The notes under the pieces were generated by a model that saw only the letters and a list, made by a program, of their open reading frames with translations, had not been told where the DNA came from and searched no databases. Below are positions 31,992 through 51,904 of a DNA stretch of 64,000 bases, one piece after another. The translations under genes and the position numbers were made by a program. The stretch is from Gracilibacillus lacisalsi DSM 19029 (lineage in GTDB: Bacteria; Bacillota; Bacilli; Bacillales; Amphibacillaceae). Numbering within the stretch: position 1 is the stretch's first letter; the number at the start of each line of letters is the position of its first letter. The DNA lies in assembly GCF_000377765.1 (NCBI RefSeq), contig NZ_KB898662.1, positions 310,001-374,000 on the forward strand, written 5' to 3'.

Positions 31992-32299
31992 ATATCACGA
32001 TTACATGCTGAGTTGTAGTAGGAATATTTTTTCAAAAGACATGGATACTATCTAATTAAAAGGTCTTCCTAATACTTAAAAAATAGTGATTTAAGATAAC
32101 CTATAATATTCGTATCACAGTGGACAAATACCGGACAATATATGTTATGAATGCAAATTTAAACCATTATTAGTATGAACAATATAATAATTAACAATTG
32201 ATTTAACATGCTTAGATCTAGCTGATTCAATACATTATAAGAATACCTTGTCTAATCCGACATAATGTGATAAATTACATGAATAAACAAAAAACTATA
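31992..32299. other. Intergenic region between deoR and the purine riboswitch
   Basis: About 308 bases of AT-rich DNA without a gene. The riboswitch transcript must start in its last part: TTGTCT and TAAATT, 17 bases apart within 32250-32280, are a possible but weak sigma-A pair. Confidence 0.4.
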
Positions 32300-32467
32300 T
32301 CATATAATCCTAGTAATATGGTCTGGGAGTTTCTACGGAGCAACCGATAATTGCTCTACTATGGACGTTGGATGTTAGAACACTTTATCTAAAATTATTG
32401 TGCTATCATTCTTTAGTTCTGTATATTTTAAGATACAAACGTCTATGGAAACCATAGGCGTTTTTTT
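32300..32467 (+). ncRNA. Purine riboswitch (guanine-type) with terminator
   Basis: The aptamer spans about 32300-32366. CATATAATCC is the P1/J1-2 side, TAATATGG with CTGGGA forms P2/L2, GAGTTTCTAC is the invariant J2-3, GAGCAA/TTGCTC is P3 with loop CCGATAA, and TACTATG is J3-1. The C in ACTATG is the ligand-reading position expected for guanine-type (T in adenine-type). P1 is short: only CATA/TATG plus a G-T pair. The platform is a terminator at 32439-32467 (ACGTCTATGG/CCATAGGCGT plus T7). GACGTT right after the aptamer can pair with AACGTC of the terminator, giving an antiterminator. So guanine or hypoxanthine should switch off the permease and phosphoribosyltransferase genes. Confidence 0.9.
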
Positions 32468-38186: not shown

Positions 38187-39137
38187 TTAAATATCCGCCA
38201 CACAACGAAAGCCCAAATTACCTGTTGAACTGTCCATTGTATTCGCGCTACGTGCTGCTACTCGGTATCGATTACAGTAGGAATGGTGACACAAGTAGGA
38301 ACCACCTCGCATCACTCGTGGTATTTGGTTTCCTGGGTACTTTAATTGTTTGGTGTTATCATTTTCAAACGGATCAGCACACCATTCCCAAACATTTCCT
38401 GAGACGTTGTATAAGCCATAACCATTTGGTGGAAACGAGACAGCTGGTGCAGTACCTATGTAGCCATCATGCGTCGTATTATTCACCGGAAATTCTCCCT
38501 GCCAAATATTGCAGTAATGTTCACCATTCGGGTGTAACTCATCTCCCCATGCATATTTCTTTTGTACTAATCCACCACGAGCAGCATACTCCCATTCTTT
38601 CTCAGTCGGAAGTCGCTTCCCTGCCCAGTCACAGAAAGCAACTGCATCATTCCAGGAGACATGGATAACCGGGTGGTCCATCCGCTCGTCAATCGAGGAG
38701 CCGGGACCTTCTGGTTGATACCAGAATGCCTCATCTACTGCTAACCACCATGGTGTTCCTGGAACCCTCCGTTCTTCTATCACCTGTTCCTTTTGAAGAA
38801 ACAAATGAAAAACGAATGACCAACCAAACACTTCTGCTTCGGTTTTGTAGCCCGTCTCATCTACGAATGCCTTGAATTCAGCATTAGTCACCGTGTGGCT
38901 ATCGATATAAAAAGGCTGCACCTCTTCTTTTCTTACCGGACCTTCCTGATCAGCTGGAAAACCGTCATCATCCTCTGTCCCCATTAAAAATGCTCCACCA
39001 TCAAGTAATACCATTTTATCTTTAAATTTGATGACTTGCTGTTTTTGATTTGTCACAGGTGACGTTTCTGTTTTTGCATCTGTAATGCTTGCTCTGTTGA
39101 CTGAACAACAAGAAGCTTGCTGATTCTCCTTTTCCAT
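38187..39137 (-). CDS. Formylglycine-generating enzyme (sulfatase-modifying factor)
   Basis: 316-residue FGE/SUMF1-family protein that oxidises the active-site Cys of sulfatases to C-alpha-formylglycine. FGE-sulfatase domain from about residue 40 (VLLDGGAFLMGTEDDDGFPADQEGP). The catalytic pair lies in GGSYLCHHSYCNRYRVAARS near the C-terminus (two Cys five residues apart, as in the copper-dependent aerobic enzymes), and NLGFRCV closes the domain. ATG at 39137 has AAAGGAG at ideal spacing; the longer frame does not. Directly downstream of a Cys-type sulfatase gene, and a second such sulfatase is at 50 kb. No signal peptide, so modification occurs in the cytoplasm. Confidence 0.94.
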   Translation of the reverse strand: MEKENQQASCCSVNRASITDAKTETSPVTNQKQQVIKFKDKMVLLDGGAFLMGTEDDDGFPADQEGPVRKEEVQPFYIDSHTVTNAEFKAFVDETGYKTEAEVFGWSFVFHLFLQKEQVIEERRVPGTPWWLAVDEAFWYQPEGPGSSIDERMDHPVIHVSWNDAVAFCDWAGKRLPTEKEWEYAARGGLVQKKYAWGDELHPNGEHYCNIWQGEFPVNNTTHDGYIGTAPAVSFPPNGYGLYNVSGNVWEWCADPFENDNTKQLKYPGNQIPRVMRGGSYLCHHSYCNRYRVAARSANTMDSSTGNLGFRCVADI

Positions 39138-39197
39138 TTCAAAAACTCCTTTTTCCATGCTATATGTTCATTATAGCATGGGGGTACAAGTGTATAA

Positions 39198-40973
39198 TTA
39201 GTCCACACGTAAGGTCATATCTATTTGATAGAAAAGACGTGCCTGTTCCTCTTTATCCACATTGTCTTTGATCCAATTTCTGATGTCATCCTCTGTTACA
39301 GCGGCATTTGTTTCTTGCACGTACTGTTTCATGGCTTGTGCCTTCGTTTTATCTTTGAGTGCATTGATCAACGTGAGATAGCCATCCTTTACATGATAGT
39401 TTACAAATGTTACCTCTTCCGTCACTGCTTCTTGCTCACGATCTAATACTTCATGTTCCTTCCTTACATCTTCAACTGAATGGATTTGATCTAATCCATA
39501 GTACGTATATAGTGTTTCTGGTGCCTCATTCTCTTCCATTAAACACTTCAGCTTCTCAATCATTTCGAATTCTTTTTCTGCATTTGTTAATGGTGATTTT
39601 TGGGCAGGGTCTTCTTTGTAGTTGAATAATTTATTGCCAAAGCGCTGATAGTTCTTGCCCATAAAGTCCGACGTTTGCATTTTCAGTGTGCTAACTCCCT
39701 TTGTAAAGGCAAAAGAGTTATCTAGCTCTGCACCTTGTAATTCCTCTGGTGTAAAACGGCGGTTCATACGCATTGGTGACAATGTATATTCATACAGATA
39801 ATCTTCCTTACCAGGCATTGGAGCTCTCATATAAATGTATTCTTGATCAGCAACGTTCATATTGCTTCCAAAGTAGCCAAATAAAATAGCTTCATGATTC
39901 ACTTCATCAGGCGATTCTACCACCTTACGTAATGATTTGCCCTTCATAAATTCTGGGATCTCAATATCAAAGAATTCCAAAATGGTAGCTGGAACATCAA
40001 TATTTTGTGCCAATTGATTTCGAGATTCATTCTGAATGCCTAAATCTGGATACCAGATAAAGAATGGAATATTAGCAATCTCATTATAGACTGGCATTAT
40101 GTTTTTCCCCCACCAGTCATGTTCACCTAAGAGTAAGCCATGATCCGTGTTCACTATCAACATCGTATCTTCCCACATATTATGTTCATCCATAAAGTCT
40201 AAAACTTTTCCTAAGTAGGCGTCACACATCGTAACAAGCGCTTTATAGAAGTTTTTCAGCAGGTCTGCTTTTTCGCTTGTATAATCATCGTGCGAGTACA
40301 TGAGCCAGCCATTAAATTCCTCTTGCGAAACACCATACATGTTTAAATATTTTTCTGGTACAAAAAACGGTTCATGCGGATCAAAGCATTCAATTTGCAA
40401 GAACCAATTGTCCGCATCCTTATTCTCTCTTAAAAACTCCATACCCGCTTCCACTGTGCGGTAAAGCATATGGTCTTCTTCTTTCGGCATATGTTCTCGA
40501 TTATATAAATCTTGAGCAATACTACCAATTTTTCTTTGCTTAAATTCATCTGGAATATTATCTAACCCATCAATATTCATATCCTTGTCCACTTTTGCCT
40601 TCCAACTATCCCCTTCTTGTCCGCGAATCAACTCATAAGAAGAATAACGTGGGTGGTAAGTGGCTCCTCCATCTCGCCAATAATGCTTATGATCTGTTAC
40701 AAGATGTGTATATATACCATTCTGTTTCAATAATTCTGGCATCGAATCATCAAATGGCTCCATAGGCCCCCAACCGCGATGTAAGAAATTGTAACGACCT
40801 GTTTGCATGTCTCGTCTTGCTGGCATACATGGTAAACTGCCAGCAAAAAATTGATTAAATTGCACTGTTTTTTGTTGTAGTCGGTCAAAATTTGGTGTTT
40901 GAATATCTGAAGCCTCATATGCATTCAATGCATTTCTTTTTAACGTATCAAACATGACTTGAATTACTTTCAT
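39198..40973 (-). CDS. Cytoplasmic Cys-type sulfatase (copy A)
   Basis: 591-residue sulfatase of the alkaline-phosphatase fold that removes sulfate esters. The FGly motif is intact: LPCMPARRDMQTGR (C-x-P-x-R) at about residues 49-62. Metal-site stretches: MFDTLKRN at the start and VNTDHGLLLGEHDWWGKN at about 269-286, including the late Asp-His pair and Lys. FDPHEPFFVPEKY also fits. No signal peptide, so it acts in the cytoplasm on a substrate already imported. Its paralogue at 50126 shares long identical blocks. It lies between the EIIBCA permease gene upstream and FGE downstream, on the same strand. An in-frame ATG at 40979 is an alternative start. Confidence 0.93.
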   Translation of the reverse strand: MKVIQVMFDTLKRNALNAYEASDIQTPNFDRLQQKTVQFNQFFAGSLPCMPARRDMQTGRYNFLHRGWGPMEPFDDSMPELLKQNGIYTHLVTDHKHYWRDGGATYHPRYSSYELIRGQEGDSWKAKVDKDMNIDGLDNIPDEFKQRKIGSIAQDLYNREHMPKEEDHMLYRTVEAGMEFLRENKDADNWFLQIECFDPHEPFFVPEKYLNMYGVSQEEFNGWLMYSHDDYTSEKADLLKNFYKALVTMCDAYLGKVLDFMDEHNMWEDTMLIVNTDHGLLLGEHDWWGKNIMPVYNEIANIPFFIWYPDLGIQNESRNQLAQNIDVPATILEFFDIEIPEFMKGKSLRKVVESPDEVNHEAILFGYFGSNMNVADQEYIYMRAPMPGKEDYLYEYTLSPMRMNRRFTPEELQGAELDNSFAFTKGVSTLKMQTSDFMGKNYQRFGNKLFNYKEDPAQKSPLTNAEKEFEMIEKLKCLMEENEAPETLYTYYGLDQIHSVEDVRKEHEVLDREQEAVTEEVTFVNYHVKDGYLTLINALKDKTKAQAMKQYVQETNAAVTEDDIRNWIKDNVDKEEQARLFYQIDMTLRVD

Positions 40974-40979
40974 TGTCAT

Positions 40980-41301
40980 TCATCCTCTCTATATTAATCC
41001 ACTGGATCGGAACATTACTTATGAGAAAAGCGCAGAGCGCCCCCTTAAAAACGTAGCGGCTGGAGCGCATCAACTGAGATAAAGGAATCACGGTGAGTTT
41101 ACGAACCGATGATGACTTTCACCTAAAGGCATAAGTGCGACTAAGCCTCTGGTTTCACCAATCGACAAGTCTTCTTTATCGTAGCGCGATTCGTGAAGTC
41201 GCCTAGTTTTTGGGCACTCAGAGCTAGACATCTGTGCTTTCCTTACTTATAAGAAAGGGAAGAAAGAAAGTATAGAATACTTCCTTCCTCCATTACAATC
41301 T
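40980..41301. other. Intergenic region between sulfatase and PTS genes
   Basis: 322 bases without a gene, occupied mostly by the dispersed repeat at 41023-41252. A promoter within or beside this repeat may drive the sulfatase and FGE separately; none could be defined. Confidence 0.5.
41023..41252. repeat. Dispersed intergenic repeat, copy 1 (about 230 bp)
   Basis: Begins GAAAAGCGCAGAGCGCCC and ends GAGCTAGACATCTGTGC then TTTCCTTAC. The second copy, at 43283-43438, has the same ends and orientation but lacks about 80 internal bases. The type (AAAAGCGC..GAGCGCC...GAGCTAGAC) resembles intergenic repeats I recall as common in Bacillaceae. The copies flank the EIIBCA gene. Confidence 0.85.
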
Positions 41302-43438
<2,137 letters not shown>

Positions 43439-43440
43439 TA

Positions 43441-43528
43441 AAAAAACCTGAGATAACCCTTACCACGTAACAAATTGATGTCGTATGGTAGAATCAACTC
43501 AGGTAATGCCCACTAAGGTAACATTCCC
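43441..43528 (-). promoter_or_regulatory. RAT-like antiterminator and terminator in the EIIBCA leader
   Basis: In the gene's direction, GGGAATGTTACC, TTAG, TGGGCATTACC (43501-43528) resembles the RAT consensus GGATTGTTACT...GGCAAAACC. Its end overlaps the 5' arm (ACCTGAG) of a long hairpin closing with CTCAGGT and seven T (to 43441). LicT binding would therefore prevent termination and allow transcription of the permease gene. Confidence 0.7.
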
Positions 43529-43562
43529 TACTATTTAGTTGTTTTAATTGTGTTCAACTCGT

Positions 43563-44420
43563 TTAACTAGATGTCTCCTTTTGCTGTCGGTCAGTCACAC
43601 GGTTAATATGAACAGTTAAATAAATTTCCTCATCCTTTGTTAAATCCAAATCAAAATTATTCTTTAAGTAGGTAGCAATTTTTTCTGTACACTGATAACT
43701 TTCCGTATACGTTTCTTTAATCTGGTTATATAAAAATGGATCAGCTGTATCTTCTAATTTTTCGTTTCGGATAAAACGAATAGCGAAAAAGCGAAGGTGT
43801 GTTAAAAACCTTTCATAGTTAACCGATTCTTCATCTAATTCCACTTTAAAATGAAACTTTACAATACTCAAAATAGTATCGACCATTTCCGTGATCTGAA
43901 CGGCATTGGTAACATTCTGACCAGAAAGCTGACTATTAACTAAGTGCAATGCAATAGATGCGGCCTCATCTTCCCCGAGGCGTACACCTGTCTTTTTTTC
44001 AATAACCTCTAAACACTTGAGTGCTAGCTGAAATTCAAGTTTGTAGTATTTGCGAATTTCCCATGAAAGTGGATTTTTTAGTTCTACACCTTTTTTGTAT
44101 CTGCTTACAGCAAAGCTTATATGATCCGTCAAAGCGATATAAAGGTACTCATCTAATTTATAAGAGAGCTTTGATTGGGCATATTCGTAAAACTGTGCCG
44201 CAATATTTAAATATATCTCTGAAGTATTCATCAATACTTTGGCAAGCTTTTCTGAAATGCCTTTGGTTTGTAAGACAAAGGTTTTTTTGATCTTGGATTT
44301 ATCAATTTCATCGCCAACTTTTTTTTGGAAGGCTAATCCATTCCCCATTACAATCACTTGCTGGTTAAGTTCATTATGGGAAATAACGACATTGTTATTT
44401 AAGATTTTACTAACTCGCAT
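43563..44420 (-). CDS. BglG/LicT family transcription antiterminator
   Basis: 285-residue RNA-binding antiterminator. N-terminal CAT domain (1 to about 56: RVSKILNNNVVISHNELNQQ, then VMGNGLAFQKKVGDEID) and two PRD domains (about 70-168 and 175-280) with the phosphorylatable His in TDHISFAV, ALHLVNSQ, LTHLRFF and LTVHINR. PTS-dependent phosphorylation of these His residues sets activity according to sugar supply. RAT-like sites are present both before its own start (44530-44559) and before the EIIBCA gene. So it should control itself and the permease-sulfatase-FGE transcript. Confidence 0.94.
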   Translation of the reverse strand: MRVSKILNNNVVISHNELNQQVIVMGNGLAFQKKVGDEIDKSKIKKTFVLQTKGISEKLAKVLMNTSEIYLNIAAQFYEYAQSKLSYKLDEYLYIALTDHISFAVSRYKKGVELKNPLSWEIRKYYKLEFQLALKCLEVIEKKTGVRLGEDEAASIALHLVNSQLSGQNVTNAVQITEMVDTILSIVKFHFKVELDEESVNYERFLTHLRFFAIRFIRNEKLEDTADPFLYNQIKETYTESYQCTEKIATYLKNNFDLDLTKDEEIYLTVHINRVTDRQQKETSS

Positions 44421-44470
44421 CTATCCTCCCCCCTCGCGAGAAACTATAGCAATAATATTGCAGCTAAAAA

Positions 44471-44559
44471 CGAAAAAAAACCTAAATTTGAATATAATTC
44501 GCTCCTTATAGAAGCATTCATTCAAATTTAGGTTTTGCCTATTACTATAGTAACAATCC
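44471..44559 (-). promoter_or_regulatory. RAT antiterminator and terminator in the licT leader
   Basis: RAT at 44530-44559 in the gene's direction: GGATTGTTACTATAG then TAATAGGCAAAACCT, very close to the known LicT/SacY target. Its last six bases overlap the 5' arm of a terminator with 15-bp arms (44520-44534 and 44479-44493, AACCTAAATTTGAAT) and eight T. Classical autoregulation by antitermination. Confidence 0.9.
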
Positions 44560-44758
44560 TAAAATATTAATTTGTTATTGAAATAATAGTAGCATATTCG
44601 ATACAAACTTGTAAACCCTTTCTTTAATTCTTTTTTCCTACACCTATAGCTTTTGGTTATAGGCTATTAAACAACGGTATTATCGCAATGTGAAAACCTC
44701 TGCTAATATTAACTTCGGCAAAACAACAAAAGAAATAGAACATCGGAGTTGAAAATTT

Positions 44759-45547
44759 ATGTTCATTATATATTTTATCGTTGGACTCTTTGCCTCTACT
44801 CTTGGTGCAATTGCTGGCCTTGGAGGCGGAGTCATTATTAAGCCTACTCTAGATTTACTTGGACATTTTGACTTAGCAACCATAGGAATTTTATCCGCTG
44901 CAACCGTCTTATCGATGGCGTGTGTTTCATTAATGAAATGCAGAAAAAACAAAGCAATGAAAGTTGATAAAACAACTAGTTCGATAATCGCTGTAGGTTC
45001 GATTATTGGTGGGGGCTCCGGAAAAGCATTATTTAATCTGCTCACTATATCATTAAATATCCCAACTATCACAGCTATTATCCAATCAGCAGTATTAGCT
45101 AGTCTTCTCTTGTTAATCTATATTTATTTTAAGAGGAAACACAGATTAAATACCTTTGTATTAGAAAACAAGTTGATTATACTTGGAGTAGGCTTTACTC
45201 TTGGACTGTTTTCCGCATTCCTTGGAATTGGTGGAGGACCAATTAATGTAGCAATTTTATCATTGTTTTTCTCGATGAACACCAAAAATGCAGGAATTAA
45301 TTCTATTTTTATCATCTTCTTCTCCCAGTTGGCAGCCCTAGTATTAATTGCATTCACAACAGGTTATGGAAATTCTGATTTATCTATGCTTTATTATATG
45401 ATTCCAGGCGGAGTTCTTGGCGGTATACTTGGCTCCACTATTGTCACCAGACTGACAAATAGGCACGTGGAAAAAATATTTAATATTAGTATTCTATTTA
45501 TTATTGCTATGAATGTATACAATATTGTTAAGGTCACCCTTACTTAA
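44759..45547 (+). CDS. TauE/SafE family anion exporter
   Basis: 262-residue membrane protein with eight spans in two halves. The family's glycine-rich motifs are at the first span (GLFASTLGAIAGLGGGVIIKPTL, about 9-31) and in the second half (LGLFSAFLGIGGGPINVAIL, about 149-168). TauE/SafE proteins export sulfite, sulfoacetate or related organo-sulfur anions. It is divergent from licT and lies between the two sulfatase/PTS units, followed by a LysR gene, so export of sulfate or sulfite released by the sulfatases is the natural inference. A hairpin (TGCTACTTT/AAAGTAGCA) follows at 45577-45599. Confidence 0.9.
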   Translation: MFIIYFIVGLFASTLGAIAGLGGGVIIKPTLDLLGHFDLATIGILSAATVLSMACVSLMKCRKNKAMKVDKTTSSIIAVGSIIGGGSGKALFNLLTISLNIPTITAIIQSAVLASLLLLIYIYFKRKHRLNTFVLENKLIILGVGFTLGLFSAFLGIGGGPINVAILSLFFSMNTKNAGINSIFIIFFSQLAALVLIAFTTGYGNSDLSMLYYMIPGGVLGGILGSTIVTRLTNRHVEKIFNISILFIIAMNVYNIVKVTLT

Positions 45548-45659
45548 TAGCGATAACTATCCACCCGTTCTGACCTGCTACTTTTATATAAAGTAGCACT
45601 TATTGTTTAACCTTTTCATTTGGTTTATAATTATCTACATCCTTAAGGAGGAAATACCA

Positions 45660-46541
45660 ATGAATATCACTACCCTACAGATGTTCTGTTTGGTTGTAGA
45701 TGTTGGTAGCATTAGCCAGGCTGCCAAACTTTCTTATGTGTCACAGCCAGCAGTGACAAAACAAATACACCAATTGGAAACTACGTATAACACCTTACTT
45801 TTTGATCGAAAAGACGGCAGACTAACACTAACGGAAAACGGTAAAATCTTGTATCCTTTTGCTAAATCCATTGTGGAAGATTTCAAACGATCGAAGGATG
45901 CTATAGAAGTAAACAATAAAAATTACCATGAATCCTTGAAGGTCGGTGCCAGTCTTACGATAGGAGAGTATTTATTACCAGGGTTTCTAGGAAAATTCAA
46001 TAAGAAAAAACCCAACATAAATATATCACTCTTAGTAGAGAACACACCACGTGTACTAGAAGCTTTGTCTAATGGCATTATCGACCTTGCTTTGGTAGAA
46101 GGGATTATCACAGATAAAAACTTACAAGTAGAAAGTATTGCCGAAGATGAATTAATCCTCATCCATTCTCCTGATCATGCTTGGAAAGATCGTGAATCCA
46201 TTAGTCTTCAAGAGCTAGTAAACGAAAAAATGCTTTGGCGTGAACCTACATCTGGTACACGGCTTATCATCGAGAACTTTTTAAGAGAGTATGACATATT
46301 AGATAGCATCGAAAGCTACATGGATTTAGGAAGTACACAGGCAATCAAAAGTGCGGTGGAGGCTAATCTAGGAATAAGCATTGTCTCTAGTTTAACCGTT
46401 AAGCGTGAGTTAGAGTTAGGGCTATTATGCGAAACCAAAATCAAAGACGTTGCATTTAAACGGAACCTTTGGCTTGTTACTAGAAAACAACGCTTCAGTA
46501 AGAATAGTGCGAGGGCATTTGTTGAGTTTATTAAAAAGTGA
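45660..46541 (+). CDS. LysR family transcriptional regulator
   Basis: 293-residue regulator. N-terminal winged HTH (TLQMFCLVVDVGSISQAAKL, SYVSQPAVTKQIHQLE, residues about 4-40) and a LysR substrate-binding domain from about residue 90 (LKVGASLTIGEYLLPGFLGKF). It resembles the CysL/YwfK group of sulfur-related LysR proteins, whose domain starts the same way. ATG at 45660 has AAGGAGG; the longer frame from 45603 has none. Directly after the TauE/SafE gene on the same strand, it may sense a sulfur compound and control export. The role is inferred from context. Confidence 0.9.
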   Translation: MNITTLQMFCLVVDVGSISQAAKLSYVSQPAVTKQIHQLETTYNTLLFDRKDGRLTLTENGKILYPFAKSIVEDFKRSKDAIEVNNKNYHESLKVGASLTIGEYLLPGFLGKFNKKKPNINISLLVENTPRVLEALSNGIIDLALVEGIITDKNLQVESIAEDELILIHSPDHAWKDRESISLQELVNEKMLWREPTSGTRLIIENFLREYDILDSIESYMDLGSTQAIKSAVEANLGISIVSSLTVKRELELGLLCETKIKDVAFKRNLWLVTRKQRFSKNSARAFVEFIKK

Positions 46542-46828
46542 TTCCATCATAATTAAAGTAAAGTGACACGGTTAATAACATACAAACTCTCTATTAACTA
46601 ATTCTACTTCATCCATCGTTCCAATACTCTGGGCATTTCCTGTCCTTTGACTATTTTGGACCGGTGCATTAAAAGAATTAGCTATCCCTAGATATTATCA
46701 ATCAAGAGTTATAGGGTATAAATATATTGAATAACCCATCTTCTTTAACTTGTTGTAAAATTTAATTACATTAATAATAAAATTAATGTTATATAACATA
46801 GAACAAAAAAAGAGAGGATGCATGTTAC

Positions 46829-47326
46829 ATGTTAGGTAATTTGTTTTCAAAACGAAAAAAGCTAGATGAGGTATGGCTAGCACCATTAACAGGCGAGCTT
46901 GTCAACATAGAAGAAGTACCAGATCCTACATTTTCAGAAAAAATGATGGGAGAAGGATTAGCCATTAAACCAACGGAAGGCAAGCTTTTCTCCCCTGTTG
47001 ATGGCGAAATTATTCAAGTTTTTCCCACTAAACACGCAATCGGGATCAGATCTGTTACTGGAGCTGAAATTTTAATACACATAGGCTTGGAAACGGTGTC
47101 TCTAGATGGAGAGCCTTTTGAATTACATGTAAGCGATGCTGACAAAGTACAAGCAGGACAGTTGTTAGTATCATTTGACTTAGAAAAAATTAGAAATGTT
47201 GCTGCAAATACCATTACCCCAATTGTTCTTACAAACGGCGACAGCATAGAAAACCTAGTAAAAAAAGAAAACAGTGATGTACAAGCAGGAAAAACGGAAA
47301 TTGCAAACTATCAAGTAAACAATTAG
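46829..47326 (+). CDS. Stand-alone PTS EIIA, glucose family
   Basis: 165-residue cytosolic EIIA (Crr/YpqE-like). Phospho-His is in [16 protein letters not shown] (about 82-97), second His in TKHAIGIRS (about 68-76), and DKVQAGQLLVSFDLEKI is the family's C-terminal block. It passes phosphate from HPr to an EIIB. The EIIBC permease at 48673 lacks an EIIA domain, so this protein probably serves it; the EIIBCA at 41302 has its own. GAGAGGATG ribosome site, own terminator downstream. Confidence 0.93.
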   Translation: MLGNLFSKRKKLDEVWLAPLTGELVNIEEVPDPTFSEKMMGEGLAIKPTEGKLFSPVDGEIIQVFPTKHAIGIRSVTGAEILIHIGLETVSLDGEPFELHVSDADKVQAGQLLVSFDLEKIRNVAANTITPIVLTNGDSIENLVKKENSDVQAGKTEIANYQVNN

Positions 47327-47375
47327 CAGTTCAGCTCACTGCTAAGAAATATATCATTTTTAACAAATAATTCAT

Positions 47376-47418
47376 AAAAAAAGTGTTGAGAAATAGCAGT
47401 TTCTTAACACTTTTTTTC
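47376..47418 (+). terminator. Terminator of the EIIA gene
   Basis: Stem AAAAAAAGTGTT.AGAAA/TTTCT.AACACTTTTTTT with a 6-base loop and T-run, 50 bases after the stop; so the EIIA gene is transcribed alone. Confidence 0.88.
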
Positions 47419-47575
47419 TTGATCAAAAACTCTCATCTCCATTTTTAAATTAACAAATATATTTGGTCAAAAGAACTTTTAAGGATATAATTATGATGGG
47501 TGTACTTTCGATTCTTTTACCATCATCAAAATTTAGTATTTTATTTAAAAATATGATATACAGAAGGTGTTTTCA

Positions 47576-48355
47576 GTGAAAATTGAGGAATTAATTAATA
47601 AAAACTACTCTGCTTTTAGTGAAGGTGAAAAAGAACTGGCAAAATTTATGTTAAGTCATAAAGAAGACATCTATGACCTAAGTATTAATGAGTTCGCCTC
47701 TCAAAGCTTGAGCTCTAAATCGTCTGTTTTACGATTTGCTCAGAAATTAGGATTCACAGGCTATACAGAAATGAAAAATTTAATGAAATGGGAAAGCCAT
47801 TTGTCTGAAGGTAATATATCACAGGTAGATTTCGGCGAAATAGTGATCCAAAATGTAAAGAGGACCATCAGCCATTTAAATAATATCAATCTTTCCGAAG
47901 TATGTGAACTAATGGAACAAAGTGCTAACATTTATCTCATGGGAACAGGTCTCCTACAGCAAAACTTAGCCATGGAAATGCAGCGAATGTTCTTAGGTAT
48001 TGGGGAAAATATGCAAATTATTCCCATGGATATCAATACTGAAATTTATCAATTGGTGACAGAGAGAATGTCAGAGGATGATCTACTCATCATTTTTTCA
48101 AGGTCCGGCAATAACCCCACACTTAAAGATGCGCTTAGCATTCCGTTGATAAAGAATGTTAAAATCCTAGCCATCACGGCTTCTGAGAATAACTGGTTAA
48201 CCAACCACTCCACTTTCTTCATCCCGGTATATGTGGACCAACACTCTAAACTGATTAGTGACTGGTTTTACTCGTCAAGTGCCTTTCATAGTATTGTCGA
48301 AACACTAGCTTATCATTACTTTGAATATAAAAACAGATCACTGACAGATAAATAA
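47576..48355 (+). CDS. RpiR/MurR family transcriptional regulator
   Basis: 259-residue regulator: N-terminal RpiR-type HTH (about 1-75, with FSEGEKELAKFMLSHKEDIY and SKSSVLRFAQKLGFTGYTEM) and a SIS phosphosugar-binding domain (about 100-240, with YLMGTGLLQQNLAMEM and LLIIFSRSGNNPTL). GTG at 47576 is chosen because AGAAGG is 8 bases upstream; a GTG at 47567 overlaps that site. It precedes the EIIBC/sulfatase unit and should sense the phosphorylated sugar made by it. A perfect palindrome upstream of the EIIBC gene is a candidate target. Confidence 0.91.
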   Translation: MKIEELINKNYSAFSEGEKELAKFMLSHKEDIYDLSINEFASQSLSSKSSVLRFAQKLGFTGYTEMKNLMKWESHLSEGNISQVDFGEIVIQNVKRTISHLNNINLSEVCELMEQSANIYLMGTGLLQQNLAMEMQRMFLGIGENMQIIPMDINTEIYQLVTERMSEDDLLIIFSRSGNNPTLKDALSIPLIKNVKILAITASENNWLTNHSTFFIPVYVDQHSKLISDWFYSSSAFHSIVETLAYHYFEYKNRSLTDK

Positions 48356-48672
48356 TTATTTCATTCACACCAAAAAAACAGTGTATTGTAAAGCAAAGCG
48401 CCGAACAACAAGTCGAATGATATCAGATAACTTTCGCCCTTGTTCAGTTACTTTTCTTTGGAGTTATTTATCGATACTGCGAATATCTTGTTGTTACCAC
48501 CTAAGCTTATTTCATCTAAATTCAGGTGAGATTGAATCACTTCACTGTTTTTATTCCCATCCTATGAAACCTTTTCCCGATATCCGTGTAAGCCCTTCAT
48601 TTAAACAAGCACATCCACTATAATCTCATTATGGTAACGTTACCTTAACAGCTTTAGAAAGGGGATTGGACA
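48356..48672. promoter_or_regulatory. Regulatory region before the EIIBC gene, with palindrome GGTAACGTTACC
   Basis: 317 bases without a gene. At 48633-48644 lies the perfect 12-bp palindrome GGTAACGTTACC, 28 bases before the GTG start and just ahead of the ribosome site GAAAGGGG. It is the best operator candidate for the RpiR-type regulator. No terminator is obvious after the rpiR gene, so read-through is possible. Confidence 0.55.
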
Positions 48673-50040
48673 GTGAATGATAAACAGCTCGCACAGAAAA
48701 TAATTGAATTATCTGACGGCGCATCGAACTTTTCAAGTATAACAAACTGTATGACAAGAGTAAGAATCAATTATAAAGATGAATCAAAAGTAGATGTAGA
48801 AAAGATTAAAGAACTTAAAGGGGTCATGGGGGTTAATCAGGAAGAAACGACCCAGATTATTGTTGGACCTGGTCGTAGTACAAAAGTAAGAGAGGAAATT
48901 GAAAATCTCCTAAGCTCTTCATCAGATGCCGAAGTAACAGGTTCTGAAGAAAACAAGGAAAAGAAACAAGGATTTTTGAAAACACTAGCAAGTATATTCG
49001 TTCCTGCGATACCAGCGATTATCGCTTCCGGTGTTGCCATGGGGATTAACAACATTATTAAAAACCTTGCGACTGCCGAAGTTGCTGAACAAGGCGTAAG
49101 TGCTACAGATAGTTTAACAGCACAACAAGTAGTGTTGGAGTCTTGGAATATGCTAGAGATCAGTACACTTCTTGCCATTATTGGAGATGCTACTTTCGCA
49201 TTTTTAGCCATTTTTATTGGAATAACATCCGCTAGAGTATTTAAAACAGATATGATCCTTGGTGGTGCGCTTGGTGCAATTACGATTGCAAGTCAACTCG
49301 AAATGCTCGGCTTGACAAGTGGACAAGGGGGACTCTTCGGTGTCATCTTAGGGGTCTATATCCTAGCCAAGGTTCAAAAACTTTTAAGAAAAGTAATACC
49401 TAATATTCTAGACGTAGTATTAACACCTACTTTTACACTCTTGATAACAGCTAGTATTTTTGTGTTTGCTATAATGCCAATTGCTGGATTTGTATCTGAT
49501 TGGTTAATTGAAGGAATTATGTATGTCATTGATAAAAGTGGTATTTTTGGTGGTTTCTTATTATCAGCCTTATTCCCATCATTAATTGCTACAGGGTTAC
49601 ATCACGGTTTAGTGCCCATTCACTTGGAGCTAATTAATGCAACAGGAACAACTCCGATTTTTCCTGTGCAGATCATGAGTAATTCAGGTCTAGTTGGCGC
49701 AGGTCTGGCGATTTATTTACTTTCTAAAAGTGAAAAAGTAAAAGAAATTGCCAAAGGTGCTGTCCCAACAACCTTCTTATCCGTTGGGGAACCGACAATG
49801 TATGGTGTTGTTTTACCTTCTGGTTTTGGTTTTATTACGGCATCCATTGGTGCTGGCTTTGGTGGTATGATGATTCGCCTACTGGATGTACAAGCATCCG
49901 CTTACGGTGCAGCCGGCATGTCTGCAATTCCATTAATCGCAGATGGTAAGTATTTACAATATCTATTATCCTATGCAGTTGGTTTTACCGCCTCCTTTAT
50001 CCTTACTTATATTGTAGGAAAATTGCGAAATTACAGTTAA
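48673..50040 (+). CDS. PTS EIIBC permease (MurP/sucrose-like)
   Basis: 455-residue permease. EIIB (1 to about 85) with phospho-Cys26 in SITNCMTRVRI and GVNQEETTQIIVGPG. EIIC (about 105-455) with ten hydrophobic segments and the signature SVGEPTMYGVVLPSGFGF. No EIIA domain follows. Its pairing with an RpiR regulator recalls MurP (N-acetylmuramic acid) or sucrose permeases. However, the next gene is a sulfatase rather than a MurNAc-6-P etherase, which points to a sulfated amino sugar or similar. A GC-rich hairpin (AAGGGGGA/TCCCCCTT, 50051-50085) separates it from the sulfatase gene. Confidence 0.93.
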   Translation: MNDKQLAQKIIELSDGASNFSSITNCMTRVRINYKDESKVDVEKIKELKGVMGVNQEETTQIIVGPGRSTKVREEIENLLSSSSDAEVTGSEENKEKKQGFLKTLASIFVPAIPAIIASGVAMGINNIIKNLATAEVAEQGVSATDSLTAQQVVLESWNMLEISTLLAIIGDATFAFLAIFIGITSARVFKTDMILGGALGAITIASQLEMLGLTSGQGGLFGVILGVYILAKVQKLLRKVIPNILDVVLTPTFTLLITASIFVFAIMPIAGFVSDWLIEGIMYVIDKSGIFGGFLLSALFPSLIATGLHHGLVPIHLELINATGTTPIFPVQIMSNSGLVGAGLAIYLLSKSEKVKEIAKGAVPTTFLSVGEPTMYGVVLPSGFGFITASIGAGFGGMMIRLLDVQASAYGAAGMSAIPLIADGKYLQYLLSYAVGFTASFILTYIVGKLRNYS

Positions 50041-50125
50041 CTGCCTCAGCAAGGGGGATTGCTTTATAAGAGAATGGTCCCCCTTACATTTTATTAAACA
50101 CTTTGTAATAATGGAGTTGAAAAGA

Positions 50126-51904
50126 ATGAAAGTAATCCAAGTAATGTTTGATACGTTAAAAAGAAATTACCTAAGTCCTTATGACAGCTCAGATGTTCGT
50201 ACACCAAATTTCACACGACTCGCTAACAAGACGGTTCGTTTTGATAACTTTTTTGCGGGAAGTTTGCCCTGTATGCCGGCAAGACGTGATATGCAAACGG
50301 GACGTTATAACTTTTTACATCGAGGTTGGGGGCCGTTAGAACCGTTTGATGATTCGATGCCAGAGTTATTAAAGAACAATGGTATTTACACACACCTTGT
50401 CACAGATCATAAGCATTATTGGCGAGATGGAGGCTCCACCTATCACCCACGTTATTCCTCCTATGAGTTGATTAGAGGGCAAGAAGGTGATAATTGGAAG
50501 CCAAAAGTAAATAAAAATACAAACATTGACGGATTAGAAAAGTTAGACTCGGAAGGTCAAAAACGAAAAATGGTGAGTATGTCCCAGGATGCCGTCAACC
50601 GTTCACACATGCCAAATGAGGAAGATCATCCCCTCTTTCGAACAGTAGAAGCAGGACTAGAGTTTTTAAGAGAAAACCAAGATGCAGATAATTGGTTTTT
50701 ACAGATTGAAAGCTTTGATCCGCATGAACCATTTTTTGTTCCTGAAAAATATTTAGAGATGTATGGTGTTTCTCAAGAGGATTACAATGGTTGGTTACTC
50801 TATTCATATGATGATTATTCAGATGAACATAGAAGAATTGTACAAGGCTACTACAAAGCACTCGTAACCATGTGTGATGCGTATTTAGGCAAAGTGTTAG
50901 ATTATATGGACGAGAAGGACCTTTGGCATGACACGATGCTCATTGTCAATACAGATCATGGCTTCATGCTAGGGGAACATGAATGGTGGGGAAAAAACAT
51001 TATGCCTGTTTACAATGAGATTGCCCAACTGCCATTCTTTATTTGGAACCCAAGCATACGACGTCAGAATGAAAGTACGGATGAATTAGCACAAACGATT
51101 GATATTCCTGCTACCATTCTCGATTTCTTTAATATTGAAAAACCTAAGGATATGAAAGGCAAATCTTTAAGCAATGTCCTAGAACACGACCAAGCAAATC
51201 ATAATGGTCTGTTATTCGGTTATTTTGGCAGTAACATTAATATTACCAATGGCGAATATGTGTACATGAGGGCGCCAATGCCAAATGTCGAGGATCTTTT
51301 ACATGAATATACATTGTCACCTATGCGAATTAACCGACGCTTTACTATCGATGAACTACAAGGTGCGACACTAACTGAACCATTTGATTTTACAAAAGGA
51401 TTAAATGTGCTAAAAATCAAATCCAATGATATCATGGCGAAGAATTACCAAAGATTTGGCCATAAATTATTTAACTATAAACAGGACCCGAATCAGGAAC
51501 ATCCAATTGATGATATCTCCACCGAGTATGACATGATCGTACAGTTAAAAGAATTAATGAAAGACCATGATGCTCCAGAAGAATTGTATGCTTATTATGG
51601 TTTAGACAAGATCCATTCGGAAGAAGATGTGCGTAGAGAACATGAACAAACTAAAAAGAGAAATGAAGCATTACTCCATGACATAAAATTTGAAGAAAGT
51701 TCGGTGAAAGAAGGGTACCTTACACTACAATCGGCAGTAAAGGATGCTGATCTCGTAGAGTCTTTGAAGCAATATTTACAGGAGGAAAGCAAAGAAAACC
51801 CCGTGACCAAAGCCCAATTAAGAACATGGGTAAAAGAAATGATACCAGCAGAAAAACAATCATTTATAAACTATCAATTGAATTTATCAATGAGAGTTCA
51901 TTAA
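50126..51904 (+). CDS. Cytoplasmic Cys-type sulfatase (copy B)
   Basis: 592-residue paralogue of the sulfatase at 39198, with identical blocks such as FAGSLPCMPARRDMQTGRYN (FGly motif intact), NFLHRGWGP and EPFDDSMPELLK. The metal and catalytic stretches MFDTLKRN and VNTDHGFMLGEHEWWGKN are also present. No signal peptide. ATG at 50126 has TGGAG 9 bases upstream and aligns with the paralogue's start; the upstream ATG at 50111 overlaps that site. Follows the EIIBC permease gene and is on the opposite strand to FGE, which should activate it too. The two copies are probably specialised for different sulfated sugars, since each sits with its own permease. Confidence 0.93.
   Translation: MKVIQVMFDTLKRNYLSPYDSSDVRTPNFTRLANKTVRFDNFFAGSLPCMPARRDMQTGRYNFLHRGWGPLEPFDDSMPELLKNNGIYTHLVTDHKHYWRDGGSTYHPRYSSYELIRGQEGDNWKPKVNKNTNIDGLEKLDSEGQKRKMVSMSQDAVNRSHMPNEEDHPLFRTVEAGLEFLRENQDADNWFLQIESFDPHEPFFVPEKYLEMYGVSQEDYNGWLLYSYDDYSDEHRRIVQGYYKALVTMCDAYLGKVLDYMDEKDLWHDTMLIVNTDHGFMLGEHEWWGKNIMPVYNEIAQLPFFIWNPSIRRQNESTDELAQTIDIPATILDFFNIEKPKDMKGKSLSNVLEHDQANHNGLLFGYFGSNINITNGEYVYMRAPMPNVEDLLHEYTLSPMRINRRFTIDELQGATLTEPFDFTKGLNVLKIKSNDIMAKNYQRFGHKLFNYKQDPNQEHPIDDISTEYDMIVQLKELMKDHDAPEELYAYYGLDKIHSEEDVRREHEQTKKRNEALLHDIKFEESSVKEGYLTLQSAVKDADLVESLKQYLQEESKENPVTKAQLRTWVKEMIPAEKQSFINYQLNLSMRVH

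Follow-up and report, generated by a model that had tools for sequence, protein, structure and literature searches.

Two side-by-side PTS permease–sulfatase pairs in Gracilibacillus lacisalsi and their probable role in the use of sulfated sugars

Can a bacterium take up a sulfated sugar through a phosphotransferase system (PTS) and remove the sulfate only afterwards, inside the cell? The question is raised by a locus of the salt-loving bacterium Gracilibacillus lacisalsi DSM 19029 (assembly GCF_000377765.1), found in a 64,000-nucleotide stretch of contig NZ_KB898662.1 (positions 310,001 to 374,000; contig 1 of a genome of 4.41 Mb), hereafter called the window. The locus contains two PTS permeases of the glucose superfamily, each beside its own sulfatase: an EIIBCA with sulfatase 1 and an EIIBC with sulfatase 2. 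These probably constitute two side-by-side catabolic modules for the import, phosphorylation and cytoplasmic desulfation of sulfated sugars or glucosides. Most of the well-studied carbohydrate sulfatases, many of which are from Bacteroidota, act outside the cytoplasm. The locus points to a second, little-studied strategy in Bacillota and enterobacteria, in which the substrate would be imported and phosphorylated first and desulfated inside.

Locus and gene content

A first-pass annotation of the window, made from the sequence alone, described two permease–sulfatase pairs with a TauE/SafE gene, a LysR gene and a stand-alone EIIA between them. All genes that it named were found by gene calls and profile searches, and the observation as a whole is confirmed. 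Its list omitted the LicT gene and the RAT-like site before the EIIBCA, as well as the RpiR gene before the EIIBC. The features of the locus are the following (window coordinates):

38187..39158, minus strand: formylglycine-generating enzyme (FGE, SUMF1), presumed shared maturase, the only FGE of the genome; PF03781, 275.7 bits
39198..40979, minus strand: sulfatase 1, 593 aa, CMPAR, partner of the EIIBCA; PF00884, 106.5 bits, alignment and tree
41008..41245, minus strand: dispersed intergenic repeat in the gap between EIIBCA and sulfatase, with 71 matching pieces across the genome
41302..43251, minus strand: PTS beta-glucoside-type EIIBCA permease, with Lys430; TIGR01995, 755.7 bits (cut-off 614.7)
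43502..43527, minus strand: element GGAATGTTACCTTAGTGGGCATTACC upstream of EIIBCA, resembling a ribonucleic antiterminator (RAT); no mismatches to the assumed RAT pattern
43563..44420, minus strand: LicT-type antiterminator of the BglG family; NF046042, 356.3 bits (cut-off 300), with CAT_RBD and PRD domains
44759..45547, plus strand: TauE/SafE family membrane protein, probable sulfate or sulfite exporter, accessory; PF01925, 102.6 bits (cut-off 32.6)
45654..46541, plus strand: LysR-family regulator paired with TauE; PF03466 and PF00126
46829..47326, plus strand: stand-alone EIIA of the Glc type; TIGR00830, 149.4 bits (cut-off 97.5)
47567..48355, plus strand: RpiR/MurR-type regulator (HTH_6 and SIS domains); PF01418 and PF01380
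48673..50040, plus strand: PTS EIIBC permease, glucose superfamily; PF02378 and PF00367; TIGR01996, 294.6 bits (cut-off 559.3)
50126..51904, plus strand: sulfatase 2, 592 aa, CMPAR, partner of the EIIBC; PF00884, 114.6 bits

Conservation of the pairing

Sulfatases and permeases are paired beyond chance, and the sulfatase tree tracks the permease type. A scan of genome contigs with two peptide patterns from the window sulfatases yielded 59 loci, two of which (L070 and L080) lacked the anchor sulfatase, leaving 57 close relatives (one genome from each species, enterobacteria being over-represented). By order, 36 belong to Enterobacterales, 11 to Caryophanales (Bacillales), two each to Erysipelotrichales and Vibrionales and one each to two further orders, with four remaining. 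Conservation of the neighbours with the sulfatases was a test proposed in the first-pass annotation, and its outcome is positive: 53 of the 57 loci, from 31 named genera, have an EIIC no more than 6 kb from the sulfatase, and in 51 of the 57 it lies on the same strand at less than 600 bp. At an assumed figure of about 15 EIIC genes per genome, the chance of finding one this near is roughly 4%. The loci without an EIIC are L064, L066, L067 and L074, those of L067 and L074 being on contigs shorter than 9 kb.

In the sulfatase tree (58 rows, L067 omitted), the partner is a BglP-like EIIBCA in eight rows, an EIIBC in 20, a GlcB-like EIICB in 25 and a single EIIC in two, with none in three; the alignments A2 and A3 cover 31 and 11 of the 59 rows. 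The permease labels change seven times on this tree, compared with a mean of 27.4 after shuffling and a possible minimum of five, and the GlcB group forms one side of a branch. RpiR and, in 21 loci, an aldose-1-epimerase-like protein typically accompany the GlcB-like type; with the enteric EIIBC type the usual companions are GntR and an anaerobic sulfatase-maturating enzyme (anSME).

The locus had been conceived as one self-contained module, whose EIIC, sulfatase, FGE and TauE should recur together. The coupling of PTS and sulfatase stands, as does the recurrence of EIIC and of a maturase (FGE or anSME, 47 of 57 loci). TauE does not recur in this way (4 of the 57 loci have it nearby), and the two pairs are separable modules: the Gracilibacillus loci L022 and L024 have LysR-TauE-LicT-EIIBCA-sulfatase-FGE and nothing of the second half, and L023, L025, L030 and L031 have RpiR-EIIBC-sulfatase with no EIIBCA linked to a sulfatase.

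DUF202 membrane-protein genes are recurrent neighbours of the gammaproteobacterial PTS–sulfatase modules, at least sometimes as a pair (e.g., L035, L037, L038, L041, L043, and L045); 29 of the 57 loci contain a DUF202 match. In Gracilibacillus dipsosauri (L026, 1717-7770), FGE, EIIA, antiterminator and EIICB genes with another sulfatase, of 446 aa, lie beside the first pair; given this second pair type, PTS coupling is not confined to one sulfatase subfamily.

Sulfatases and their maturation

Sulfatases 1 and 2 share 66% identity (393 of 592 residues). Both belong to the type-I S1 sulfatases by their PF00884 scores (cut-off 25) and by the C-x-P-x-R site, present as CMPAR in each, as had been read from the sequence. 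Of the 57 related sulfatases, 56 carry the site close to the N-terminus, the exception being L067. Asp9, Cys49, Pro51, Arg53, His97, His200, Asp277, His278 and Lys290 (sulfatase 2 numbering) are invariant in the 31-row alignment; following the S1 pattern, we take them to be catalytic or metal residues. In agreement with the claim that signal peptides are absent, neither N-terminus contains a signal-peptide-like hydrophobic run (best 12-residue Kyte-Doolittle mean over the first 45 residues 0.92 and 0.65, a hydropathy measure as distinct from a signal-peptide predictor). On this measure a secreted sulfatase was rejected; both enzymes are probably cytoplasmic.

The AlphaFold model of sulfatase 2 (mean predicted local distance difference test, pLDDT, of 82; predicted template modelling score of 0.88) has the sulfatase fold of the alkaline phosphatase superfamily, with the loop 51-64 beside the active cysteine at pLDDT under 50. 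The 50 structural matches listed are mostly S1 sulfatases (Z 25.9-29.1, 305-383 residues aligned), and few of them extend beyond model residue 502; the best 50 Foldseek matches listed are likewise sulfatases.

The nearest named locus in the tree is that of G. suaedae, with a sulfatase 93% identical, followed by G. halophilus. A recent tandem duplication of one pair is unsupported: sulfatase 2 branches outside the nine-row set that holds sulfatase 1 (96/86), and the EIIBC is far under the BglP cut-off.

The FGE can be aligned along its domain with solved FGEs and retains both cysteines, as claimed: its CHHSYC motif aligns to CHESYC of the solved FGE 5nxl (377.8 bits), and we take this pair to be the catalytic cysteines. 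It is indeed single, being the sole PF03781 match in the whole genome, where an anSME query found nothing at E<=1e-30. Formylglycine (FGly) in the window sulfatases would presumably be formed by this one enzyme. Among the 57 loci, an FGE lies within 10 kb in seven and an anSME in 42, both being present in L030 and L077. Ten loci have no maturase nearby, and seven of their genomes were searched (all but those of L064, L067 and L074); all seven encode a homologue of FGE, of anSME or of both elsewhere, some of the anSME matches being just 41% identical. The exchange of two unrelated maturases among loci is good evidence that the sulfatases need formylglycine.

A third Cys-type sulfatase of the genome (CAPAR; contig 1, 180.4-181.8 kb, stretch L087) is located beside genes for a GH106 rhamnosidase-like protein, an AraC-type regulator and an ATP-binding cassette (ABC) importer (L087 8427-19000, minus strand; 180.4-191 kb), possibly a locus for sulfated-rhamnose glycans. 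As the window FGE is the only one in the genome, this sulfatase would have to use it as well. The fourth PF00884 match is a 642-aa frame on contig 16.

Permeases

The EIIBCA belongs to the beta-glucoside permeases (BglP/BglF), its TIGR01995 score exceeding the cut-off. The EIIBC reaches no NCBIfam equivalog cut-off, including those of the sucrose (294.6 bits, cut-off 559.3), trehalose (216.3, cut-off 591.95) and MurNAc (200, cut-off 516) systems. It has no EIIA domain, and the stand-alone EIIA is, from its gene position, the probable phosphate donor.

The sulfatase-linked EIIBCAs (window, L022, L024, L026-L029, and L077) form one clade of eight rows (100/100) within the BglP-type family. For comparison, an EIIBCA search gave 33 matches, 30 of them with loci, of which four are linked (L101-L104) and 22 were taken as unlinked; the second EIIBCA of L025 brings the latter to 23. 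L112, which begins at residue 29, and L122, L124 and L126, which contain internal stop codons, were left out. Position 430 is Lys in all eight linked permeases and Phe, Tyr or Met in all 23 unlinked paralogues, with the same result in a wider alignment. It is the sole position within residues 1-470 at which a positive charge was gained (at least 85% of linked and at most 30% of unlinked rows), among 19 group-specific positions, a number to be expected since any clade would show such positions. Lys430 is a candidate residue for lining the substrate pocket and accepting the sulfate. In attempts to map it, an EIIC profile found no match at E<=1 among PDB sequences, and a single-sequence search hit just EIIA and EIIB structures. 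Position 214 was rejected as a mark of linkage: it is Thr in 8/8 linked and acidic in 16/23 unlinked rows, yet the sister row L105 also has Thr.

When 20 linked EIIBCs were compared with five unlinked ones, residue 452, three from the C-terminus, was Lys or Arg in 20/20 versus Glu in 5/5, and His317 was present in 20/20 versus 2/5. In L077 a permease of the linked EIIBCA clade is combined with a sulfatase from a different subclade, which suggests that the two partners are exchangeable.

Regulation

The first pair has the constituents of a LicT antiterminator system, a LicT above its cut-off and the RAT-like element before the EIIBCA. At up to three mismatches the assumed RAT pattern matched twice in 64 kb, where 0.52 matches would be expected; two or more matches also arose in 7 of 100 shuffles, so the informative part is the zero-mismatch match adjoining LicT. 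A hairpin and a T run follow the element (within 43430-43545; fold z = -2.84). Elsewhere among 95 loci, the zero-mismatch pattern occurs in L024 alone, between LicT and EIIBCA, and is absent from L022. The RpiR gene precedes the EIIBC in the same position in L023, L025, L030 and L031, and LysR adjoins TauE also in L022 and L024. The regulators beside the pairs are mostly of sugar type (LicT, RpiR, and GntR).

Proposed pathway

A glucose-superfamily EII would import the sulfated sugar or glucoside, with phosphorylation probably at O6. Only then would the sulfate be taken off, in the cytoplasm, by a type-I sulfatase that would owe its activation to the one FGE of the genome. With phosphorylation at O6, the sulfate should be located elsewhere on the same residue or on the aglycone, as the first-pass annotation had argued. 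Pair 1 (LicT-RAT-EIIBCA-sulfatase-FGE) would most likely serve sulfated beta-glucosides, in view of its LicT-RAT control, its BglP ancestry and the glycoside hydrolase family 1 (GH1) genes in relatives. Its product, a desulfated 6-phospho-glucoside, might be cleaved by GH1 6-phospho-beta-glucosidases of the same genome whose genes lie outside the locus. Pair 2 (EIIA-RpiR-EIIBC-sulfatase) would handle a second sulfated sugar, with no substrate class favoured. The desulfated product could enter glycolysis directly if it is a monosaccharide, or via a 6-phospho-glucosidase, and the freed sulfate might be assimilated or exported by the TauE protein.

The earlier statement that the locus lacks a phospho-glycosidase is correct for the window but not for its relatives. 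GH1 genes directly follow the EIIBCA in Shouchella/Salibacterium L027, L028 and L029 (by Pfam for L027 and L029), that of L027 exceeding two 6-phospho-beta-glucosidase cut-offs, and a GH4 gene follows the sulfatase in Amphibacillus L023. Three of the five GH1 matches of the G. lacisalsi genome exceed 6-phospho-beta-glucosidase cut-offs, outside the locus; two of its GH1 genes are in tandem beside an EIIBCA paralogue on contig 4. The TauE/SafE protein, which had been assigned the export of sulfate, is present by PF01925 and probably exports sulfate or sulfite. Its rarity beside related sulfatases rules it out as a core part and leaves it an accessory one.

Counterevidence and alternative explanations

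Several observations weigh against the proposed import and cytoplasmic desulfation. L064 and L066 have no EIIC, and L066 and a Streptomyces plasmid have a gene of the major facilitator superfamily (MFS). In a distant set of eight stretches from related genomes (L088-L095; sulfatases 38-53% identical), an EIIC is present in one only (L093, from the same genome as L023). The long-form sulfatases of L089 (MFS) and L090 (ABC), with 593-594 aa, are about 45% identical to sulfatase 2, so length is no mark of PTS linkage. Because the two window sulfatases supplied the search patterns, the count of 53 in 57 applies to one clade and not to the family as a whole. Lys430 arose in one clade and represents a single evolutionary event, and no matching Lys was found in the compared EIIBC partners. 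The likeness of the sulfatases to phosphonate and phosphodiester hydrolases belongs here as well. Finally, for the Streptococcus pneumoniae island SPH1922-1930, described in 2012 with a Lac-type PTS, a sulfatase, a sulfatase-modifying factor and TauE (PMC3283741, PMC3302838), the passages on the island report that sulfatase activity was undetected, that a deletion caused no growth change in the media tried (PMC3283741) and that the PTS mutant had no phenotype in phenotype microarrays (PMC3302838).

The likeness to phosphonate and phosphodiester hydrolases leads to the first alternative, namely that the FGly hydrolases cleave a phosphodiester or phosphonate ester on a PTS-delivered 6-phospho-glycoside instead of a sulfate ester, which we consider unlikely. 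FGly is used by sulfatases and phosphonate/phosphodiester hydrolases alike, the PehA model (phosphoric/sulfuric ester hydrolase) is the best NCBIfam model for both window enzymes (110 and 116.8 bits), and the structural matches include phosphonate monoester hydrolases (2w8s and 4uph, both Z 27.4). Against this, the PehA scores are far from the cut-off of 900 bits, and both sulfatases match PF16347, the C-terminal domain of N-sulphoglucosamine sulphohydrolase. Carbohydrate sulfatases score slightly higher in structure (6hr5, S1_25, Z 29.1; 6hhm, S1_7, Z 28.9), within a list of 50 matches that spans just 3.2 Z units and for a model whose active-site loop 51-64 is poorly modelled. A sulfate ester is likewise favoured by TauE, which is encoded in the window, in the pneumococcal island and at 4 of 57 other loci.

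Equally low is our estimate for general sulfur scavenging, in which the sulfatase would act on imported sulfate esters and the PTS would bring a separate, unsulfated sugar. One argument for it comes from the distant set. ABC permease genes lie beside the sulfatase, or beside an adjoining second sulfatase, in L088, L090 and L092 (in L092 with two unidentified genes between), and an MFS gene lies beside it in L089 and L094 (transporters identified by Pfam; the neighbours of L091 and L095 are outside this result). This sulfatase kind therefore does not oblige a PTS, although such importers also fit a sulfatase acting after import. The LysR protein beside TauE is weakly similar to the YeiE model (200 bits, cut-off 480), and the third sulfatase of the genome adjoins an ABC importer and the GH106-like protein. 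Scavenging agrees poorly with the frequent EIIC neighbours in close relatives, the clustering of permease types on the sulfatase tree, the recurrence of the order EIIBCA-sulfatase-FGE in L022 and L024, and the mostly sugar-type regulators. The distant sulfatases of L088-L092 and L094 occur in clusters, several of them with multiple sulfatases, in which the transporter type varies and the sulfatase kind is constant (the transporter of L091 aside).

An accidental neighbourhood, with sulfatases unrelated to the permeases, is highly improbable: the separable halves in L022 and L024 and the mostly EIIC-free distant homologues would fit it, but the EIIC neighbours of close relatives in two phyla and their clustering on the tree do not.

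PTS import with subsequent desulfation in the cytoplasm thus remains the preferred reading. Of the first-pass interpretation, PTS–sulfatase coupling, probable cytoplasmic location, one FGE and conserved neighbours are supported; novelty, a single unit, TauE as a core part and the lack of a phospho-glycosidase are weakened. A tentative extension, somewhat doubtful as a whole, is that these sulfatases form a clade specialised for PTS products, split from a larger family served by ABC and MFS importers. Its substrate might be a doubly anionic 6-phospho-sulfo sugar or glucoside, for which the permeases would have adapted; in the BglP-derived type, the change from an aromatic residue or Met to Lys430 might admit a sulfate-bearing ligand. 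The system could have spread over Bacillota and Pseudomonadota while its permeases (BglP-like, EIIBC, and GlcB-like) and maturases (FGE and anSME) were exchanged. To our knowledge, no sulfatase has been characterised for such a doubly anionic substrate, although we made no search aimed at one.

Plasmids, degenerate copies and other features

The module may be mobile. Among five plasmid records viewed out of 87, a PTS IIC gene is located beside the sulfatase or next but one in two (H1 and H12) and an MFS gene in one (H3); of the others, H9 has ABC genes on the opposite strand and H6 has no annotation. A Serratia entomophila plasmid typed as conjugative (L096 1720-10642) carries EIIC, a long sulfatase, GntR, two DUF202 genes and anSME, followed at some distance by a short gene of the TauE family. 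In a plasmid record of Enterobacter hormaechei (L099 1-7485), PTS IIC and IIB genes are followed by a shorter sulfatase, near an aryl-sulfate sulfotransferase. In Escherichia coli, a near search with the Klebsiella oxytoca module had no match among 5,426 genomes; a distant search with the Salmonella arizonae EIICB–sulfatase pair matched 1,536 genomes, none over more than 80% of the query, and the ten matches listed are PTS genes. The sulfatase homologues of L010 and L018 each contain one internal stop codon; that of L018 (seen in L093) still adjoins EIIC and an antiterminator.

Copies of the dispersed repeat occupy the EIIBCA-sulfatase gap (41008-41245) and the LicT-EIIBCA gap (43280-43433), both on the minus strand. 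Several of its matching pieces in the genome are almost full length, and the copy in the EIIBCA-sulfatase gap is not thought to be part of the function. A purine riboswitch (RF00167, 75.7 bits; 32280-32381, plus strand) lies 5' of a permease-like and a phosphoribosyltransferase-like open reading frame, both named from the sequence; at the Rfam gathering threshold, nothing else was found between 30000 and 60000.

Comparison with known systems

The earlier view that the combination is perhaps undescribed is weakened: the four parts and the idea were already published for the pneumococcal island (PMC3283741, PMC3302838), with a proposal, in the passages on it, of sulfated-carbohydrate uptake and export of the sulfur product and no substrate identified (PMC3302838). 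PTS, sulfatase, sulfatase-modifying factor and TauE are found in one cluster in both cases, likened by gene content and not by sulfatase sequence. The island has Lac-family EIIA, EIIB and two EIICs with a ROK regulator, whereas the window has Glc-superfamily EIIBCA and EIIBC, LicT, RpiR and LysR, and two sulfatases. In searches of the open-access literature we found no account of the Glc-superfamily version or of its presence in two phyla, nor of the alternation of two maturases or of Lys430, and as far as that literature shows this version is new. Beyond the two papers on the island, sulfatase, TauE and PTS were found together in one further paper, PMC7117923. The terms 'phosphotransferase', 'cytoplasm' and 'intracellular' were not found in a review of bacterial carbohydrate sulfatases (PMC10154612). 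For experiments, the locus supplies well-defined components, namely a permease, a sulfatase and a maturase, in some cases with a phospho-glycosidase, and it singles out one permease residue.

With the canonical BglP-LicT-GH1 operon the first pair shares an EIIBCA above the TIGR01995 cut-off, LicT and a RAT-like element, and the linked clade lies inside the BglP-type family; it differs in the sulfatase and FGE that follow the EIIBCA and in Lys430, which replaces Phe, Tyr or Met. The GlcNAc-6-sulfate clusters of Bifidobacterium breve UCC2003 reportedly use non-PTS transport and an anSME. They resemble the proposed pathway in their intracellular sulfatases for sulfated monosaccharides, by the relevant passage of the source (PMC7326374). 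The streptococcal PTS for glycosaminoglycan disaccharides also takes up and phosphorylates a sugar, here from host glycans, and a figure legend of the same paper names PTS and sulfatase genes in glycosaminoglycan loci of gut Firmicutes; as described in its relevant parts, a polysaccharide lyase and an unsaturated glucuronyl hydrolase are central there, neither of which was seen in the window locus (PMC9067506).

A precedent for the use of a sulfated substrate comes from Companilactobacillus farciminis, in which sinigrin, a sulfated thioglucoside, is metabolised via a beta-glucoside PTS EII and GH1 (PMC8660893). According to a passage of a review, the role of sulfatases in glucosinolate metabolism is unclear and the enzymes need identification (PMC6767122), a gap on which the PTS–sulfatase locus may touch. 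The sinigrin system, as its description in the relevant passages has it, works without a sulfatase, the sulfate leaving after cleavage by non-enzymatic rearrangement; it is like the proposed pathway in that a sulfated beta-glucoside enters through a beta-glucoside-type EII, whose partner is a GH1 6-phospho-beta-glucosidase (PMC8660893).

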